A DNA stretch of 5,135 nucleotides from a bacterium (lineage in GTDB: Bacteria > UBA9089 > CG2-30-40-21 > SBAY01), in contig JBFLYA010000266.1 of assembly GCA_040757115.1 (NCBI GenBank), positions 1 through 5,135 on the forward strand, given 5' to 3'. Position numbers and translations under genes: made by a program. Positions 139-5,135 of this stretch are shown here, one piece after another (position 1 is the stretch's first letter; every line of letters starts with the position of its first letter). Under the pieces are notes generated by a model, which did not search any database, had not been told where the DNA came from, and saw nothing but the letters and a program-made list of their open reading frames with translations.

Positions 139-165
139 GAGCGTTCTCCTGAAAATGAATAGAAT

Positions 166-199
166 ACGGATGACACGGATTAGACGGATGAGCACGGAT
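166..199 (+). repeat. Short tandem array of ACGGAT units, 9-10 bp period
   Basis: ACGGAT occurs four times, at 166, 175, 184 and 194, separated by 3-4 variable bases, giving periods of 9, 9 and 10. The array runs directly into another CGGATT pair at 218-239. A plus-strand open frame crosses the region, but its translation simply follows the repeats, so I treat it as non-coding. Confidence 0.8.
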
Positions 200-210
200 T
201 TTTTATTTTT

Positions 211-287
211 TAGTAATCGGATTGAGCGGATTAATCGGACTTCTTTTCTGTTTTTTTATCTGCTCAATCCGCTAAATCCGCTTACTA
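211..287. repeat. Imperfect inverted repeat built from 9-bp CGGATT units
   Basis: The left arm (211-239) and the reverse complement of the right arm (259-287) match at 24 of 29 positions, with a 19-nt T-rich loop. Each arm begins TAGTAA and then carries CGGATTNAG-type units at a 9-bp period. The RNA or single strand could fold into a long hairpin. No T-run directly follows the stem, so a terminator role is not supported. It continues the ACGGAT array beside it. Confidence 0.75.
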
Positions 288-302
288 CTTATTTCCCTTA
301 TT

Positions 303-536
303 GTAACCGTTCAGGTAATCCTTTACCGCAGAGACGCAGAGAAACAGAGAAGAAAATATCTTTTTTTCGTGTTTTTCGGTATTTAAAAAGGCTTAAAAAC
401 AGTTAGTCGAAAGTAAGTATTAAAAGATTATAAACAACGAAAGCCCCGAAATGCACAAAAAAAGGGAATTTCTGTTTCTGGTGAATAGATTTTAATTTTT
501 TCTCTGCGTCTCTGTGTCTCTGCGGTGAACGGTTAC
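303..536. repeat. 234-bp element with inverted GTAACCGTTCA/CAGAGACG ends
   Basis: The left end (303-353, plus) has the head GTAACCGTTCA, a 12-nt insert, then CCGCAGAG and an 8-bp-period tail (CAGAGACG, CAGAGAAA, CAGAGAAG). The right end (501-536, minus) has the same head joined straight to CCGCAGAGACACAGAGACG. The ends therefore face each other. Inside, T-rich 361-379 and the complement of 443-463 are also loosely inverted. Another copy of the left end, 48 of 51 bases identical, lies at 3567-3617. There is no gene inside. The design matches that of 1475-1729, which suggests a dispersed, possibly mobile, non-autonomous repeat. Confidence 0.75.
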
Positions 537-547
537 CCCTTATTTCC

Positions 548-574
548 CTTTGCGTTCTTTGCGTGCTTGGCGTG
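548..574 (-). repeat. Three 9-bp ACGCAAAGA-type units
   Basis: On the minus strand the units are ACGCCAAGC, ACGCAAAGA and ACGCAAAGG, an exact 9-bp period. They lie between the right end of the 303-536 element and the GC-rich hairpin, and have the same general form (AC, two or three variable bases, AAG) as the ACGAAGGAC units at 1475-1510. Confidence 0.75.
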
Positions 575-595
575 AAACTTCCTTTCCCCTGAAAA

Positions 596-631
596 TCGGG
601 GTTCGGGGATTCTTTTATTCCCGAGCCCCGA
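596..631. repeat. GC-rich 15-bp hairpin downstream of the Spy-like gene
   Basis: Bases 596-610 pair with 617-631 around a 6-nt loop (TCTTTT). In plus-strand RNA all 15 pairs form, two of them G-U. In minus-strand RNA two positions become A-C mismatches. It lies 34 bp past the stop codon of the minus-strand gene at 665-1444 and could terminate it, but only GATTTTC follows the stem on that strand. A terminator role is therefore possible, not established. Confidence 0.5.
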
Positions 632-657
632 GTCCCGAGCCCCGAGCCCCGAGTCCC
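620..657 (+). repeat. Tandem array of five 7-bp CCCGAGY units
   Basis: Five consecutive heptamers CCCGAGC, CCCGAGT, CCCGAGC, CCCGAGC, CCCGAGT occupy 620-654, with a closing CCC. The first two units are also the right arm of the hairpin at 596-631. The array is far more GC-rich than its surroundings and sits just past the 3' end of the Spy-like gene. Such arrays can change copy number by slippage. Confidence 0.85.
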
Positions 658-664
658 TTTATTT

Positions 665-1444
665 TCATTCCCCTTGTTGTGTTTCTATTTTCTCACTATG
701 TTGACGAAGTGCCTCTTTAAATCGTTCAGCCGCTTCATTATTTTGAAATTCGTCTAATCCTTGTGCTGATTCACCAAATGGATTTTTTTGCAAATTAGGC
801 GAAGAAGGCTGTGGTGGTAACCCTTTTGAAAATTCCTGCTGAGCCTTTTCACTTTGTGATTGAAGTGCCTGGATAAATTTATCTCTTGCCTCTTTTTCTT
901 TCTCAGTCATCGTGGTTGCTGAAGAGCCTGAAAATCCCTTATTTTTTTGCACGGCGACTTCAAAAGGATTACTTGGAGGAGATACCTCTCTTTGTGGTTT
1001 AATCTCAGGCACCCATTTTTGAGCCCATTGCTGTTCAAGCCAGGGAACAAACTCCTTATACTGAAACGGGGTCAAAGTTTGTTCGACATCTATTTTTGTC
1101 TTCTCTACAATTTCCACTGTTTTCTTATCCATATTATTTTTTTCGTCTTGCTTCTTCTCCATAGATAGTTTTTCATCTTTGAGTATCTCCTGCCATTCTT
1201 GTTGAAGGGTTTCTAATGCCTCTTTTTCTGCTTTAATAATCATCATCATCTTTTGGGTTTGCTGGGGAGTTAATGATAATCTCATCGTCATCTCATCCAA
1301 AAATGTAAAATCCGTAGCGAAATAACTAATCATTGGTCTTGTCCCAAAGCTATCTTTTTCTACCTTTTCACCTTCTTTAGCTAAAATCTGCTGTGCCATC
1401 CCCATGCTAATCATTAAAATAACCGTTACCATTATTTTTTTCAT
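665..1444 (-). CDS. Secreted Spy/CpxP-like LTxxQ protein, 259 aa
   Basis: An N-terminal signal peptide is visible (MKK, hydrophobic stretch to about residue 20, likely cleavage after ILA at 22), so the protein should be periplasmic or exported. Two LTxxQ motifs, LTPQQ at 58-62 and LTPFQ at 124-128, bracket a charged, coiled-coil-like helical stretch (about 65-120). This arrangement recalls Spy/CpxP-type periplasmic stress chaperones, but the protein is longer than those (usually about 160 aa). The C-terminal half is rich in Gln, Lys, Glu and Pro and contains a degenerate internal duplication: NPF plus EARDKF at 159-200 resembles NPF plus EAAERF at 221-252. The start is supported by AGGAGG at 1458-1453, 8 nt before the ATG. 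No clear promoter is seen. The signal peptide is confident; the chaperone-like role is inferred. Confidence 0.8.
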   Translation of the reverse strand: MKKIMVTVILMISMGMAQQILAKEGEKVEKDSFGTRPMISYFATDFTFLDEMTMRLSLTPQQTQKMMMIIKAEKEALETLQQEWQEILKDEKLSMEKKQDEKNNMDKKTVEIVEKTKIDVEQTLTPFQYKEFVPWLEQQWAQKWVPEIKPQREVSPPSNPFEVAVQKNKGFSGSSATTMTEKEKEARDKFIQALQSQSEKAQQEFSKGLPPQPSSPNLQKNPFGESAQGLDEFQNNEAAERFKEALRQHSEKIETQQGE

Positions 1445-1474
1445 TTCAAATTCCTCCTTTAATTTAGTAATTTA

Positions 1475-1729
1475 GTAACTATTCACTACGAAGAGCACGA
1501 AGGACACGAAATGGAATTTAATGTCTTGTAATTTTCGGTAGTGTCTGACAATAACTACAATTCTTTTAACCACAAAGCTCACAAAGAGTTTCACAAAAGA
1601 GTCAAAGATTTTTGAGAGAATAAATTTTTCCCTTTATTTCTTTGTGTATTGTTTGTGTAATTTGTGGTTAATTTCAGAGACCATCTAATTTTCTTCGTGT
1701 CCTTCGTGTTCTTCGTGGTGAATAGTTAC
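1475..1729. repeat. 255-bp nested inverted-repeat element (GTAACTATTCAC ends)
   Basis: The outer arms 1475-1510 (plus) and 1694-1729 (minus) agree at 34 of 36 bases: head GTAACTATTCAC, then 9-bp units ACGAAGAAC/ACGAAGGAC. Inside are second inverted arms: TTAACCACAAA (1566-1576) and its exact complement (1661-1671), each leading into CACAAAG-type units. The centre is A/T-rich and has no gene. The element fills almost all of the gap between two minus-strand genes, ending 3 bp past the methyltransferase stop codon. On the left it abuts two AATTTAGT octamers (1461-1476). I see no clean target-site duplication. It looks like a miniature inverted-repeat or BIME-like element. Confidence 0.8.
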
Positions 1730-1732
1730 CTT

Positions 1733-2401
1733 TTATTTAGTTGCCACTATAGCCAGATGTCTAACAAATTGTCTTGGGAATTTTCTCGTTATCATCATAG
1801 CTAATTCATAAATCCCGGTTTTACTAAGGACAGGAATCCTATTAATAATACCACCTAATTTGAACAAGTTAGTCGTAACCGGTTCGATTTTTACTATTTT
1901 AAACCTTCTTGACACTAAATCAATAAATTCTTGATATTTAAAATATCCTGGTAAAATAGGGACAGAAATCAGGATATATCCATCTTTTTTTAAAAGGGTA
2001 TATAAATTATCAACTATTTCTAAGAGGAAATTTCGTGGAGGATAATATATTACTTCTAAACAAGTTATTAAATCAAAACTTTCAGGTTCAAATTTCAATT
2101 CGATAATATCTTGGACTGAAAAAATTACCTTGTCCCCAAATTCACTAAAATAAGTCTTACATCGATTAATAGCTATTTCAGAAATATCTACTGCATAAAT
2201 TTTATCGCCGATATTTAATAATTTACTGGTAAATGCACCTTCACTACAACCTAATTCTAATATCTGTGGATAATGTCCATGCGGAATCAGTTTAAATGAA
2301 TTTTCTAATCTCACCTTTTCGGCATAGACATTTTTTGTTCCCCATGGATCCCCTTTTTTTGAATACATATCGTCAAATTTCTCTTGTTGTAATAAATCCA
2401 T
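1733..2401 (-). CDS. NodS-like SAM-dependent methyltransferase, 222 aa
   Basis: This is a class I S-adenosylmethionine methyltransferase. Motif I is ELGCSEG (49-55), the ribose-binding acidic residue is D72 in AVDIS, a further acidic residue is D98 in QDI, and motif IV is FDLITCLEVIYY (109-120). The N-terminal DPWG (18-21) followed by an E-K-R stretch (28-31), together with EVIYYP, fits the NodS-like family, which includes the N-methyltransferase of Nod-factor synthesis. The natural substrate cannot be read from sequence; the divergent rfbA suggests a glycan or glycolipid, as inference. The ATG at 2401 has no Shine-Dalgarno sequence, and the -10 box of a perfect promoter ends 7 nt before it, so the mRNA is probably leaderless. 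A second in-frame ATG at codon 12 also lacks a ribosome-binding site and would still retain DPWG. Confidence 0.9.
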   Translation of the reverse strand: MDLLQQEKFDDMYSKKGDPWGTKNVYAEKVRLENSFKLIPHGHYPQILELGCSEGAFTSKLLNIGDKIYAVDISEIAINRCKTYFSEFGDKVIFSVQDIIELKFEPESFDLITCLEVIYYPPRNFLLEIVDNLYTLLKKDGYILISVPILPGYFKYQEFIDLVSRRFKIVKIEPVTTNLFKLGGIINRIPVLSKTGIYELAMMITRKFPRQFVRHLAIVATK

Positions 2402-2408
2402 AATAAAA

Positions 2409-2437
2409 ATTATATCAAAAATTTAATACCCTGTCAA
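2409..2437 (-). promoter_or_regulatory. Perfect sigma-70 promoter of the methyltransferase gene
   Basis: On the minus strand TTGACA (2437-2432), a 17-bp spacer, and TATAAT (2414-2409) match the consensus exactly. TG one base before the -10 makes it an extended -10 (TGATATAAT). The expected transcription start is at about 2402-2401, on the start codon itself. A near-copy including the spacer lies at 3658-3686. Confidence 0.9.
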
Positions 2438-2467
2438 CTGAATTGTAAGAATTTGTTAAAATTTTCC

Positions 2468-2496
2468 TTGCCTTTTTTTTAAATATATTATATAAT
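2468..2496 (+). promoter_or_regulatory. Sigma-70 promoter of rfbA
   Basis: TTGCCT (2468-2473, 4 of 6 consensus), a 17-bp spacer and TATAAT (2491-2496, perfect). The predicted start at about 2503 gives a leader of roughly 44 nt before the rfbA ATG. It is back to back with the methyltransferase promoter, the two -35 boxes being 30 bp apart, so one bound regulator could affect both. Confidence 0.75.
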
Positions 2497-2536
2497 TCAG
2501 AGGTGAAAAAGTTTTCTGACTACTATCTACTATTTT

Positions 2537-2541
2537 GGAGG
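2537..2541 (+). promoter_or_regulatory. Ribosome-binding site fixing the rfbA start at 2547
   Basis: GGAGG lies 5 nt before ATG 2547. The longer in-frame alternative begins at TTG 2535, which overlaps this site and adds only four residues (MEVV) ahead of the conserved MKGIILAGG start. The ATG is therefore chosen. Confidence 0.9.
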
Positions 2542-2546
2542 TTGTA

Positions 2547-3428
2547 ATGAAAGGTATTATTCTTGCCGGAGGAAGTGGAACAAGGCTTTATCCCATAACG
2601 CTGGGTATTAGTAAACAACTTTTGCCGATTTACGATAAACCGATGATTTATTATCCTCTATCCGTGCTGATGTTGGCGGGGATAAGAGAAATTTTGATCA
2701 TTTCAACTCCCCATGATTTACCAAGATTTAAAGAACTCTTCGGTGATGGTTCACAGTTAGGACTAACATTTTCTTATAAAGAACAACCTTTTCCCAATGG
2801 TCTGGCTGAGGCATTTATATTAGGGAAAGAATTTATAGGTGATGATGATGTGTGTCTCATTTTAGGAGATAATATCTTTTATGGTGATAGCTTAATTCAG
2901 TTACTAAGGAATATCGTTCAAGATATTACTACCTCAGGAGGAGCTACGGTTTTTGGTTATTATGTGAGTAATCCTCAACAATATGGAGTAGTGGAATTTG
3001 ATAAAGAGGGAAAGGTTTTATCTATTGAAGAAAAACCTAAAATACCTAAATCTCACTATGCAGTTACAGGCCTGTATTTTTATGATAATAATGTTGTTGA
3101 GATTGCTCATGGTATTAAACCTTCCTGGAGAGGAGAGTTGGAGATAACCGATGTAAATAAAAAATATTTGGAAGATAATAAACTTAAGGTTGAACTTTTA
3201 GGTAGAGGATATGCCTGGCTTGATACAGGAACCCATGAAAGTCTTCTTGAAGCGGGAGAGTTTATGGCGACTATAGAAAAAAGGCAGGGTTTGAAAATAG
3301 CCTGTATAGAAGAAATTGCCTATTCCTTAGGATACATAGACAAAGAACATTTATTAAAGATTGGTGAACTTTTGAAAAATAGTCAGTACGGACAATATGT
3401 TTTGAGGATAATTAAAAATGAACAATGA
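2547..3428 (+). CDS. rfbA: Glucose-1-phosphate thymidylyltransferase, 293 aa
   Basis: It catalyses dTTP + glucose-1-phosphate to dTDP-glucose + pyrophosphate in the cytoplasm, the first step of dTDP-rhamnose and other dTDP-sugar synthesis. The family motifs are complete: nucleotide-binding GGSGTRLYP (8-16) with K23, [13 protein letters not shown] (27-39), GLAEAF (85-90), LGDNIFYG (106-113) with the metal-binding Asp at 108, EEKP (161-164), ELEITDVN (197-204) and [10 protein letters not shown] (221-230) with the second metal-binding Asp at 226. Length is normal for RfbA/RmlA and the protein is intact. The gene stands alone: no rfbB, rfbC or rfbD lies in the window, whereas these are usually clustered. 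It has its own promoter and a good ribosome-binding site, and is divergent from the NodS-like methyltransferase. No convincing terminator follows. Confidence 0.97.
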
Positions 3429-3521
3429 CCTCATTTAACTAATTCACCAATGCTCAAATGTCTACTTTAACTTATCCACCCCTTCTTTGTTGCCTAACTC
3501 TGTATAACCTGCCTACCTACC

Positions 3522-3617
3522 TGAACGGTTACAATAATCTTTTATGTGCTCTAATTTATTTCTATGTCCTCTCTGTTCCTCTGCGTCTCTGCGGTAAAGG
3601 ATTACTTGAACGGTTAC
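3522..3617 (-). repeat. GTAACCGTTCA repeat cluster, one long copy with CAGAGACG tail
   Basis: On the minus strand the head GTAACCGTTCA occurs exactly at 3617-3607 and again at 3532-3522, 85 bp apart in the same orientation. The first belongs to a 51-bp copy (3617-3567) that matches 303-353 at 48 of 51 positions, including the 12-nt insert and the CAGAGACG tail. The second head has no obvious tail. A small CGGATA-TTTT-TATCCG hairpin overlaps the edge at 3617-3632. A plus-strand open frame spans 3458-3658, but it is made of this repeat and has no ribosome-binding site. The rest of 3429-3711 shows no gene. Confidence 0.8.
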
Positions 3618-3657
3618 GGATATTTTTATCCGAAAGTCTTCTTGTTTCTGTAAACTA

Positions 3658-3686
3658 ATTATATCAAAATTTTAATGCCCTGTTAA
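3658..3686 (-). promoter_or_regulatory. Second copy of the methyltransferase promoter, pointing at the rfbA 3' end
   Basis: On the minus strand TTAACA (3686-3681), a 17-bp spacer, and extended TGATATAAT with TATAAT at 3663-3658. Bases 3657-3686 match 2408-2437 at 27 of 30 positions, and 15 of 17 spacer bases agree. No minus-strand gene begins downstream, so a transcript would run through the repeat cluster and antisense to the end of rfbA. It may be a duplicated or relic promoter. It lies 25 bp past the permease stop codon. Confidence 0.6.
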
Positions 3687-3711
3687 TAGAAAAATTTTCT
3701 TCAAATGTGCA

Positions 3712-4899
3712 TTACTCATATCGAAGTGCCTCAACAGGATTAAGTTTAGCCGCCAGATGTGCGGGATAGACACCAAAAAATATCCCGACCAGACAGGAAA
3801 AAGAAAAACCAAGCATAATCGCCCAAAATGAGAGAAAGATATCTAAATTCACCATCTTTACTATTAATAAAATCATACCCATTGCCGCACCAATCCCGAT
3901 TATTCCGCCGGTAAGACAGAGTATCAGGCTTTCAATCAAAAACTGCCAGAGTATATCTTTTTTAGTGGCACCAACCGCCTTTCTGATACCAATTTCACGC
4001 GTCCGCTCTCGCACTGCTACTAACATAATATTCATAATCCCAATTCCTCCAACCAACAAAGAAATAGCCGCAATACTACTAATCACAATAGAAATGATAT
4101 TCGTTATCGTAGAGAGCATTTCAATCATTTCATCCAGGGTAACAACTTCCCATACCTTTCTATTAGAAAAGGTTTTAAACAGATAGTTTTCTACTCGCTC
4201 TTTGAGTCCAGAGACACTCACTCCATTCCTGGCTTTAAAGAATACCAGATATATTTCTTGTGCACCAAGTAGCCGTTTCACACAAGAAGATGGTAAAAGT
4301 AAGGCATTGTTAGGGTCCATTGGTCCCATCTTTAACTTAAAACCCATTAACCCAATGACCTTGAAATATGTCCCTTCTATATTTATCTCTTGTCCCAAAT
4401 TTTTTTGCTTTCCAAAAAGTGAATTAAAGAGTTGATGACCGACGACGCAGACCTTTTCTGATGATTTAACCTCATTATCGGTGAATTTTCTACCTTTTAT
4501 AATCAGGTCTAATCCTCGCACCTCAAACCAGTTGGCTGGCACACCAATCACCGTAATCAGTTTATTTTCACCCCGAACCTTCATTGGAGTAGATAAAAAA
4601 TACTGGGGGGCTAAATCAGCAATTCCCGGGATGTCCTTTTTCATTGTTTCAAGTTGAGTTTCAGTCAGATAGGCAAATTTATCCACCCGAGTTTCCATCA
4701 TCTGGTCATTATGGGCAACGACGAGATTAGTTCCAGAACCAGTAATTTCACGAATAATTAGCCTTTTCCCTTCCTCACCAATGGTAATAATTGCCACAAT
4801 CGAAAAGACACCAATAGTAACCCCTAAAATCGTTAGAAAGGAACGCAGTTTGTATTGCCTTAAACTCTTTAATGAAGACAAAATATAATCTACGAACAA
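3712..4899 (-). CDS. MacB/FtsX-family ABC transporter permease, 395 aa
   Basis: This is an inner-membrane permease of the MacB type without a fused ATPase. The order is an N-terminal SLKSLRQYKLRSFLTILGVTIGV signature in two parts (cytoplasmic lead 9-20, TM1 about 21-41), a large periplasmic MacB_PCD-like domain (about 42-262), TM2 about 266-297, the FtsX cytoplasmic signature ERTREIGIRKAVGA (298-311), TM3 about 320-348, TM4 about 357-380, and the typical ending NPVEALRYE. Length fits stand-alone permeases (about 400 aa). The start chosen is TTG 4899, 4 nt after AGGAGG (4909-4904). A longer in-frame GTG at 4986 would add 29 residues encoded by a 7-bp repeat and no family signature. Such permeases work as dimers with a separate ATPase, often with a MacA-like adaptor; neither is in the window. 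The substrate (peptide, antibiotic, lipid or lipoprotein) cannot be told. Confidence 0.93.
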   Translation of the reverse strand: MFVDYILSSLKSLRQYKLRSFLTILGVTIGVFSIVAIITIGEEGKRLIIREITGSGTNLVVAHNDQMMETRVDKFAYLTETQLETMKKDIPGIADLAPQYFLSTPMKVRGENKLITVIGVPANWFEVRGLDLIIKGRKFTDNEVKSSEKVCVVGHQLFNSLFGKQKNLGQEINIEGTYFKVIGLMGFKLKMGPMDPNNALLLPSSCVKRLLGAQEIYLVFFKARNGVSVSGLKERVENYLFKTFSNRKVWEVVTLDEMIEMLSTITNIISIVISSIAAISLLVGGIGIMNIMLVAVRERTREIGIRKAVGATKKDILWQFLIESLILCLTGGIIGIGAAMGMILLIVKMVNLDIFLSFWAIMLGFSFSCLVGIFFGVYPAHLAAKLNPVEALRYE

Positions 4900-4903
4900 G
4901 GTT

Positions 4904-4909
4904 CCTCCT
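4904..4909 (-). promoter_or_regulatory. Shine-Dalgarno site selecting the TTG start of the permease
   Basis: A full AGGAGG on the minus strand ends 4 nt before TTG 4899. The preceding bases (TCATTTTCAGGAG on the minus strand, 4917-4905) are identical to those before the weak short frame at 49-138. Confidence 0.8.
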
Positions 4910-4920
4910 GAAAATGAGGA

Positions 4921-4948
4921 AGTAGAAAGTAGAGAGTAGAAAGTAAAG
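4921..4948 (+). repeat. Four 7-bp AGTAGAR-type units in the permease leader
   Basis: AGTAGAA, AGTAGAG, AGTAGAA and AGTAAAG follow one another without gaps. On the transcribed (minus) strand this is a pyrimidine-rich TTTCTAC array 12 nt upstream of the Shine-Dalgarno site. Copy-number change here would alter leader length without touching the protein if the TTG start is used. Confidence 0.8.
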
Positions 4949-5023
4949 AAAACATCACTGCTCACGCTTATCTCCCCATCTCCCACCTTCTATCTCCTAC
5001 CTACTATTTTCATCCTCCTATGT

Positions 5024-5044: not shown

Positions 5045-5060
5045 TTTCTCCTACAATTAG

Positions 5061-5089
5061 ATTATATCATACCTAATCCATTATGTCAA
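5061..5089 (-). promoter_or_regulatory. Perfect sigma-70 promoter upstream of the permease
   Basis: TTGACA (5089-5084), a 17-bp spacer and TATAAT (5066-5061) match the consensus exactly, with an extended -10 (TGATATAAT). Predicted transcription start is about 5054, giving an unusually long leader of about 155 nt before TTG 4899. This makes the permease the first gene of its transcript, not the tail of an operon with an upstream ATPase gene. Confidence 0.85.
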
Positions 5090-5135
5090 AAGGATTTTGT
5101 GTCAATATTCAGAATCCCGTGTTTCAAAATTCTAT

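Follow-up and report, generated by a model that had tools for sequence, protein, structure and literature searches.

Introduction

The window analysed here, a stretch of 5135 nucleotides covering positions 1 to 5135 of contig JBFLYA010000266.1 (assembly GCA_040757115.1), contains at six places an 11 bp motif, GTAACYRTTCA (the head), which is combined with tails of differing short-period tandem repeats. The question raised by this arrangement is what the head is, how it came to be scattered and where its tails come from. We consider it very probable that two layers act together, namely short elements inserted through IS66-type ends and tails derived from units built around genes of the GxxExxY family.

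Occurrence of the head

All six places carry the motif on the strands given in a preliminary description made from the sequence; 0.04 occurrences were expected by chance, and six were reached in none of 200 shuffles. Genome-wide the motif is found 1,065 times in 4.3 Mb (525 forward and 540 reverse), compared with 22 occurrences (9 and 13) of a control consisting of the same pattern read backwards. Heads are biased towards intergenic DNA, 13% of them lying inside ORFs although ORFs make up 71% of the sequence. The 8 and 9 bp periods of the tails are real, and the linkage of head to tail extends beyond the window. Of the 60 CGCAGAGACGCAGAG clusters in 1.57 Mb, 45 are preceded by an exact head at no more than 60 bp, the spacing being 13 or 1 bp in every case, against a chance rate of linkage of 0.3%. 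Synteny breaks lay near a head in 8 of 28 cases, compared with 16% at random, numbers too small for a claim. Rfam gave no match within the window, and literature searches with the head or tail strings returned no relevant paper. The features of the window are as follows.

295–302, no strand: target site duplication CCCTTATT, left copy, read from the sequence
303–536, +: IS66-ended miniature element, 234 bp, subfamily A (A1 left, A2 right), with convergent heads and an exact 8 bp duplication
303–313, +: IS66-type terminal inverted repeat, CG variant
326–353, +: upstream-type CAGAGACG array, 8 bp period, once flanking a GxxExxY gene that is now lost
493–525, −: downstream-type CAGAGACG array, inverted partner of 326–353
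526–536, −: IS66-type terminal inverted repeat, CG variant
537–544, no strand: target site duplication CCCTTATT, right copy, read from the sequence
1475–1729, +: B-B element, 255 bp, with TA heads, CACGAAG arrays at both ends and no target duplication
1566–1671, no strand: CACAAAG arrays, inner inverted pair within the B element
3461–3532, +: IS66 remnant, comprising the right terminal repeat and the 3' part of the transposase gene up to its end
3522–3532, −: IS66 right terminal inverted repeat
3533–3617, −: A1 end, truncated, of a GxxExxY cassette with IS66 ends, aligned over 85 bp without gaps to bases 1–85 of cassette L247
3533–3565, −: decayed GxxExxY gene start, ATG now ATA (intact copies, MEINQITEKII)
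3607–3617, −: IS66-type terminal inverted repeat of the truncated A element

Two points of the preliminary description are corrected by this list. The heads at 303/526 and 1475/1729 do not represent four independent copies but the convergent ends of two single elements, and the head at 3522–3532, to which a CAGAGACG tail had been attributed, has none, being the end of an IS66 transposase remnant.

The head is the terminal inverted repeat of IS66-family elements

The ends of target-duplicated elements share the 13 bp terminal inverted repeat consensus GTAAC[CT][AG]TTCA[CG][CG], in which the initial GTAA reflects selection, since the ends were collected with a GTAA pattern. The same ends are carried by independent IS66 genes, identified as such by Pfam and NCBIfam matches. 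A transposase gene lies between them at L051, L117/L124, L118/L123, L125 and L231–L239; such genes are present in the window's genome (in degenerate form), in relatives and in another phylum. At L051 a transposase pseudogene sits exactly between GTAACCGTTCAGGTA ends in a 1563 bp copy, to whose right end the window's remnant (3461–3532) is 97% identical over 72 bp. Transposases of 468 aa (L117/L124) and 522 aa (L118/L123) are bounded by GTAACCGTTCACA and GTAACTACTCAGG ends, respectively, and tnpC fragments adjoin a GTAACTATTCAGCA end at L055, in the window's own genome, and at L125. Outside the phylum, genome G065 contains IS66 elements of 1492–1494 bp with ends GTAACTATTCAGG/GTAACCATTCAGG and exact 8 bp duplications at four separate sites, and ISAva2 has ends GTAAGGATTCAGG and target duplication CGATAAAG.

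A classical IS66 element carries tnpA, tnpB and tnpC. The autonomous relatives found here, of approximately 1.5–1.7 kb, have one long ORF and lack the tnpA/tnpB accessory genes, and they resemble the single-ORF members of the family (ISAva2, ISKpn15-like) in having GTAA-starting ends followed by TTCA[CG][CG], an 8 bp target duplication and a DDE_Tnp_IS66 transposase of approximately 470–520 aa; the window's elements differ in being without a transposase. IS66 ends have been described as starting GTAAGCG (PMC11946415). Both head variants match IS66 parents in this genome, which survive in the assembly in degenerate or truncated form. The window's assembly, a draft of a kind from which repeats are often lost, yielded no intact IS66 transposase, and this counts against the explanation preferred here.

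Taken together, the identity of the 11 bp head as the terminal inverted repeat of IS66-family elements is solid. The suggestion that the head is a recognition site for one enzyme is supported, the kind of enzyme being an IS66-family transposase. A REP/BIME-like origin with movement by a Y1 (TnpA-REP) transposase, for whose gene a search had been suggested, might account for the high copy number, intergenic bias and palindromic folding, and Y1 genes do exist; however, none of the six Y1 loci is enclosed by a pair of heads, REPs leave no 8 bp duplication, and the exact 8 bp duplications together with IS66 genes bearing identical ends make such an origin extremely improbable.

Mobility and subfamily structure of the headed elements

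Pairs of heads bound elements of approximately 170–500 bp, many with exact 8 bp target duplications. Among 95 neighbouring head pairs, 32 had an exact 8 bp duplication compared with 0.5 expected, and none had one of at least 9 bp. Two clean empty sites were recovered in the sister genome G001, one for L081 17570–17863 (400 of 400 bp aligned with no gap) and one for L092 7797–8004, so that mobility of the family, previously surmised, is borne out. The elements are short, lack a transposase, have two terminal inverted repeats and a target duplication, are multicopy and show insertion polymorphism between related genomes, as do miniature inverted-repeat transposable elements (MITEs). Near full-length copies of element 303–536 are numerous in G000 and G001. 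The two sides of element 1475–1729 have different contexts in the sister genome.

IS66-ended short elements are an already known kind of thing, and for the head the proposal of an undescribed system falls away. Bacterial MITEs, of which MITEPsy1 (PMC3189936) and the IS982-derived MITECca01 (PMC9769881) are examples, are likewise short, non-coding, largely intergenic and of high copy number, with IS-type ends and target duplications; an IS66-derived MITE was not found in the literature searched. Our estimate that the short elements make up approximately 3% of the genome compares with published shares of ‘up to 2%’ (PMC3281130) and 3.5% (PMC9769881). The elements described here differ from other bacterial MITEs in that many subfamilies, their interiors unrelated, have one end in common. 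The combination of one head with several tails, as noted earlier, is real, but tails are not freely interchanged: target-duplicated elements mostly have fixed end pairs (A1-A2, B-F, C1-C2, D1-D2 and G1-G2). The head variant mostly tracks the tail, the TA head being present on 43 of 43 B tails; it also occurs on a minority of A tails, one such element having a perfect duplication. Nearly all B-B elements, including that at 1475–1729, lack the 8 bp duplication, which counts against our preferred explanation.

GxxExxY cassettes as the probable source of A tails

The genome has 65 matches to PF13366. Full-length GxxExxY genes lie between CAGAGACG tails and heads in four cassettes of 459–472 bp (L243, L244, L245 and L247), and 292 bp deletion derivatives with exact duplications occur at L264, L267 and L268. 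Elements of subfamily A bearing target duplications align to the ends of GxxExxY cassettes, and the ends of element 303–536 match those of the 472 bp cassette L247; the window's 303–536 and 3533–3617 are deletion derivatives of such cassettes. In the four full-length cassettes themselves the 8 bp duplication is absent (1–4 of 8 bases match), a further point against our explanation. Copies from L243 and L246 match the family profile (PDDEXK_3; TIGR04256, PF13366) at 1e-46 to 1e-48, and the catalytic D, E-x-K and Q-x3-Y residues, as expected of a PD-(D/E)XK protein, are invariant across 30 diverse copies. The arrays directly adjoin the gene at its start and stop codons, and in some copies the open frame takes in the upstream array. 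The cassettes resemble mobile insertion cassettes (MICs) in that two IS ends enclose a passenger gene and no transposase, but differ in that the passenger already lies within its own inverted arrays and that no target duplication was found for full-length copies.

Other GxxExxY genes are flanked by E-like GGATAAGG and CGCAAAG arrays (L252 and L250). By analogy, the B-F, C, D and G tails may also be linked to GxxExxY, and would then derive from other units of this kind. Some arrays are solitary, with neither head nor GxxExxY nearby, and these count against the explanation. No GxxExxY gene was found beside CGCAGAG arrays of other genomes (L155–L184) within the stretches examined, and these are thus solo arrays. 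Headless 7 bp arrays in this genome include CCCGAGT and AGTAGAG. For headless arrays (5–6 pairs only) no convincing offset or length of a target duplication of their own was obtained with a script that recovers the 8 bp duplication of headed elements. Degenerate 7 bp tandem units in intergenic DNA also make up the short tandemly repeated repetitive (STRR) sequences of cyanobacteria, to which the headless 7 bp arrays may be akin.

Array-flanked GxxExxY genes in other bacteria

In 24 other genomes, 24 GxxExxY loci were scored for inverted array flanks against displaced controls; 20 of them exceeded the controls' 99th percentile, and by eye 23 had such flanks. The arrays had first been spotted by eye and regular expressions chosen afterwards; the alignment test of the 24 loci is independent of those expressions. 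A repeat dialect common to both arrays of a unit exceeded the 99th percentile of mismatched pairs at 13 of 24 loci. GxxExxY was present in 13 of 14 genomes with a CGCAGAGACGCAGAG array, compared with 20 of 84 without. Array-flanked examples occur in Bacteroides, Bernardetia and Sphingomonas, in the last between fabD and fabG, and in unrelated genomes such arrays flank GxxExxY with no IS66 head present. Plasmids seldom carry GxxExxY (8 of 72,556 records), phage records contained none, and none was found in viral contigs by a scan that detects close relatives only. The search for an empty site of a headless unit gave none, L255 being filled in both genomes and the flanks of L246 lying on different contigs. 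The flanking repeats were not described in those parts of the open-access literature that were searched, and the GxxExxY-array unit looks new; for what the tails belong to, the proposal of an undescribed system may be right.

Discussion

Our working model is that the head would be recognized by single-ORF IS66-family (TnpC, DDE) transposases, which would have inserted roughly 500 short transposase-less elements, each with two heads, in trans, duplicating 8 bp of AT-rich target. The CAGAGACG tails are the inverted degenerate 8–9 bp repeat arrays bracketing a GxxExxY gene, predicted to encode a small PD-(D/E)XK (RecB/Cas4-like) nuclease. Array–gene–array units within IS66 ends constitute the 459–472 bp cassettes, and internal loss of the gene gave the shorter A elements. 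The nuclease may itself have a role in maintaining or moving its arrays.

It is conceivable, though rather unlikely, that these are plain IS66 MITEs with randomly captured interiors and that GxxExxY is an accidental passenger, uninformative on the arrays. The unrelated interiors of the subfamilies, several of which have no demonstrated internal GxxExxY, and the existence of headless arrays are consistent with this, but arrays bracket GxxExxY where IS66 heads are absent, and across genomes array presence tracks GxxExxY presence. We give similarly little credence to the arrays being regulatory or structural hairpins of the GxxExxY gene (terminators or RNA-stability elements) rather than mobility signals. 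The window's elements do fold back strongly (z=−9.7 and −13.2) and the arrays adjoin the start and stop codons; against this, arrays persist at high copy number once the gene is lost and some upstream arrays continue into the open frame.

Somewhat less doubtful, but still tentative, is a selfish array–nuclease–array unit that would cut related arrays and be copied in by repair, in a homing-like manner, with IS66 ends hitch-hiking later in this phylum. This would supplement the two-layer explanation, not replace it. The invariant catalytic residues, the shared array dialect and the fabD–fabG placement in Sphingomonas speak for it, whereas headless units yielded neither target duplication nor clean empty site when these were looked for, plasmids rarely carry GxxExxY, and phage records gave no match. 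GxxExxY genes might, on this speculative reading, form the centre of a widespread selfish unit, as yet undescribed, in which the nuclease would target the unit's own arrays; the scattered CAGAGACG/ACGAAGGAC-type repeats of many genomes could possibly be its gene-less remains; and IS66 ends may perhaps have captured and amplified such remains in this phylum.

Under the two-layer explanation, a large group of unusual intergenic repeats from one phylum would be accounted for as IS66-type miniature elements, and the IS66 link supplies a transposase family to test. The repeat arrays of many bacteria would at the same time be tied to one small nuclease family, GxxExxY, of unknown role, so that the origin of the repeats and the purpose of GxxExxY would merge into one testable question.

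Head pairs as IS66-type ends

All six window positions that the preliminary description gave for the 11-bp head, GTAACYRTTCA, were found to carry it (0.04 expected), and its excess over chance extends genome-wide: the 4.317 Mb of the organism's own genome (462 contigs) hold 525 forward and 540 reverse copies, 1,065 in all, while a reversed-pattern control occurs 22 times. Counts in 18 same-phylum relatives ranged from 2 to 1,074 per genome, and outside the phylum were at background in most genomes.

Within 1.57 Mb of the own genome, neighbouring heads form convergent pairs, mostly spaced 170-500 bp apart, in which the head variant (CG, TA or TG) is identical in 73 of 95 cases (40 expected on shuffling). 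Exact 8-bp target duplications flank 32 of the 95 pairs, where 0.5 would be expected, and none of at least 9 bp was found among them. The ends of the duplicated elements share a sharp 13-bp consensus, GTAAC[CT][AG]TTCA[CG][CG], and the adjoining target is AT-rich. One such element lies in the window:

303-536, element with target duplication CCCTTATT

Ends starting with GTAA and 8-bp repeats are hallmarks of IS66 (PMC11946415); both are matched here, and the head is therefore read as an IS66-type end. An IS66 transposase pseudogene of the own genome (locus L051) is bounded exactly by GTAACCGTTCAGGTA ends, and window positions 3461-3532 are 97% identical to the right end of that copy. The TA head variant terminates another IS66 copy (L125) and, in the own genome, adjoins a tnpC fragment (L055). 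No intact IS66 gene was recovered from the own genome, and the assemblies are fragmented at these very repeats; two genomes from its order carry open transposase genes with identical or similar ends. The complete genome of an unrelated organism (G065) carries 1.5-kb IS66 elements with ends GTAACTATTCAGG/GTAACCATTCAGG; exact duplications of 8 bp flank them at four distinct sites (nine loci, several overlapping). Named relatives are ISAva2, with ends GTAAGGATTCAGG and duplication CGATAAAG, and an ISKpn15-like element.

Another genome outside the phylum, G078, has 260 heads, mostly GTAACTGTTCA among those listed, many paired at a spacing of about 125 bp; it gave no PF03050 match. These pairs are perhaps orphan IS66-type miniature elements.

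Mobility of the headed elements

The element at 17570-17863 of locus L081 has a perfect empty site in the sister genome (400/400 bp, no gap, a single AAGAAAAG), and that at 7797-8004 of L092 has another; this count leaves out many other script-flagged matches, which are repeat matches. A third element (L066, 4193-4436) is present in both genomes with an identical duplication. The sister copy of the window B element carries an inserted E-type head, and a B-type head at the sister site matching window position ~3702 is absent from the window; in both cases the far end lies off the contig. Nesting was also seen, L081 4646-4923 lying within 4223-4976, each with a duplication. A composite with B-type ends recurs in L045 (1962-2284), L148, L146 and L153, with 'gcgcatccaatgactctattcgat' in common, differing outer flanks and no duplication.

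Target duplications are missing from the full-length cassettes and from nearly all B-B elements, which have B tails at both ends. Their age, or recombination among the copies, may account for this; a search for such recombination yielded no demonstration.

Tails as flanks of GxxExxY genes

The preliminary description spoke of interchangeable tails; free interchange did not hold, as duplication-bearing elements mostly have fixed end pairs. B tails follow a TA head in 43/43 cases, and the two main CAGAGACG tail classes follow a CG or TG head in 75/82 and a TA head in 7.

In some A elements the tail continues into MEINQITEKIIGAAIEIH, with which a GxxExxY protein (PF13366/TIGR04256, a small nuclease family) begins. 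The own genome contains 65 PF13366 matches; genes spanning the family sit between CGCAGAG arrays and heads, and others are bracketed by different arrays without IS66 heads.

GxxExxY units of the own genome
L243, L244: between CGCAGAG arrays and heads; 459 bp; open
L245, L247: between CGCAGAG arrays and heads; 472 bp; in-frame stops in both
L246: headless; CACGGAG/CACAGAG arrays
L250: headless; CGCAAAG arrays
L252: headless; GGATAAGG arrays, within a further inverted repeat CGACCTGTGAAATAGG

A elements bearing target duplications match bases 1-48 or ~1-107 of the 472-bp cassette (L247) plus 393-472 or 420-472, and since both cassette ends are matched, they are internal deletions. In L264, L267 and L268, 292-bp derivatives that keep some of the gene are flanked by exact duplications. 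Window positions 3533-3617 match cassette bases 1-85, the ATG having decayed to ATA. No case of movement was demonstrated among the headless units, although it was looked for. The CGACCTGTGAAATAGG repeat encloses units with GGATAAGG arrays in L249, L251 and L252, and is apparently the end of a different mobile element also carrying GxxExxY.

Paired arrays in other genomes

A PF13366 search of 98 genomes gave matches in 33. Flank pairing was scored at 24 full-length loci, one from each of 24 other genomes (L274 belonging to the sister species), by aligning the 170 bp upstream with the reverse-complemented 170 bp downstream; segments displaced by 300-700 bp and mismatched pairs served as controls. 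The median score was 40, against 16 and 17, respectively; scores lay above the 99th percentile in 20/24 loci when set against the displaced control, and in 13/24 when set against mismatched pairs. By eye, arrays were paired in 23/24, the sole exception being L275. Copies on plasmid records had paired arrays in Bacteroides, Bernardetia and Sphingomonas; those in Persicobacter, Fusobacteria and Prevotella had no clear ones.

Of the 98 genomes, 14 have the CGCAGAGACGCAGAG array; GxxExxY is present in 13 of these 14 and in 20 of the 84 that lack the array (Fisher p = 1e-6, ignoring shared ancestry); outside the phylum the figures are 5/5 and 15/74 (p = 7e-4). In Sphingomonas parapaucimobilis (L305), a GxxExxY unit with TTCACGCGAAG arrays lies between fabD and fabG, interrupting their usual operon neighbourhood. 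No description of repeats flanking GxxExxY was found in the accessible portion of the open-access literature, where absence is not proof of novelty.

Nine residues are invariant in 30 aligned GxxExxY proteins (E26, Y29, D66, E76, K78, Q90, Y94, N107 and F108). We take the D...ExK and QxxxY pattern to be like that of RecB/Cas4-type nucleases; PADLOC gave a weak Cas4 match, and no sequence match to any solved structure was found.

Other arrays and signals in the window

163-285, headless ACGGAT-type array with inverted partner (CGGATTGAGCGGATTAATCGG / CTGCTCAATCCGCTAAATCCG)
548-581 and 620-657, headless CTTTGCGTN and CCCGAGT (7-bp) arrays
4919-4949 and 4978-5010, inverted AGTAGAAAGTAGAG-type arrays upstream of an FtsX/MacB-like gene
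2408-2442, 3657-3691 and ~5060-5100, minus strand, TTGACA-N-TATAAT (TTAACA at 3657-3691)

The 163-285 array, which has several near-identical copies in the sister genome, probably belongs to the same class as the tails, as a solo array or one that has no gene; the AGTAGAAAGTAGAG-type arrays are also multicopy there. Over 1.57 Mb, a head lay beside 1/27 clusters of CGCAAAG arrays and 0/32 of CCCGAG arrays. The minus-strand signals lie in stretches that resemble one another and are predicted to be ordinary sigma-70-like promoters, and the putative one at 3657-3691 points only at repeat remnants.

Proposed mechanism

The 13-bp ends would be bound by an IS66 transposase, which would insert any DNA lying between two of them and duplicate 8 bp of target. 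We infer that mobilisation occurs in trans by this transposase, and likewise infer the role of the GxxExxY nuclease. Most likely, GxxExxY units caught between IS66 ends would have been amplified in this way, with loss of most of the gene.
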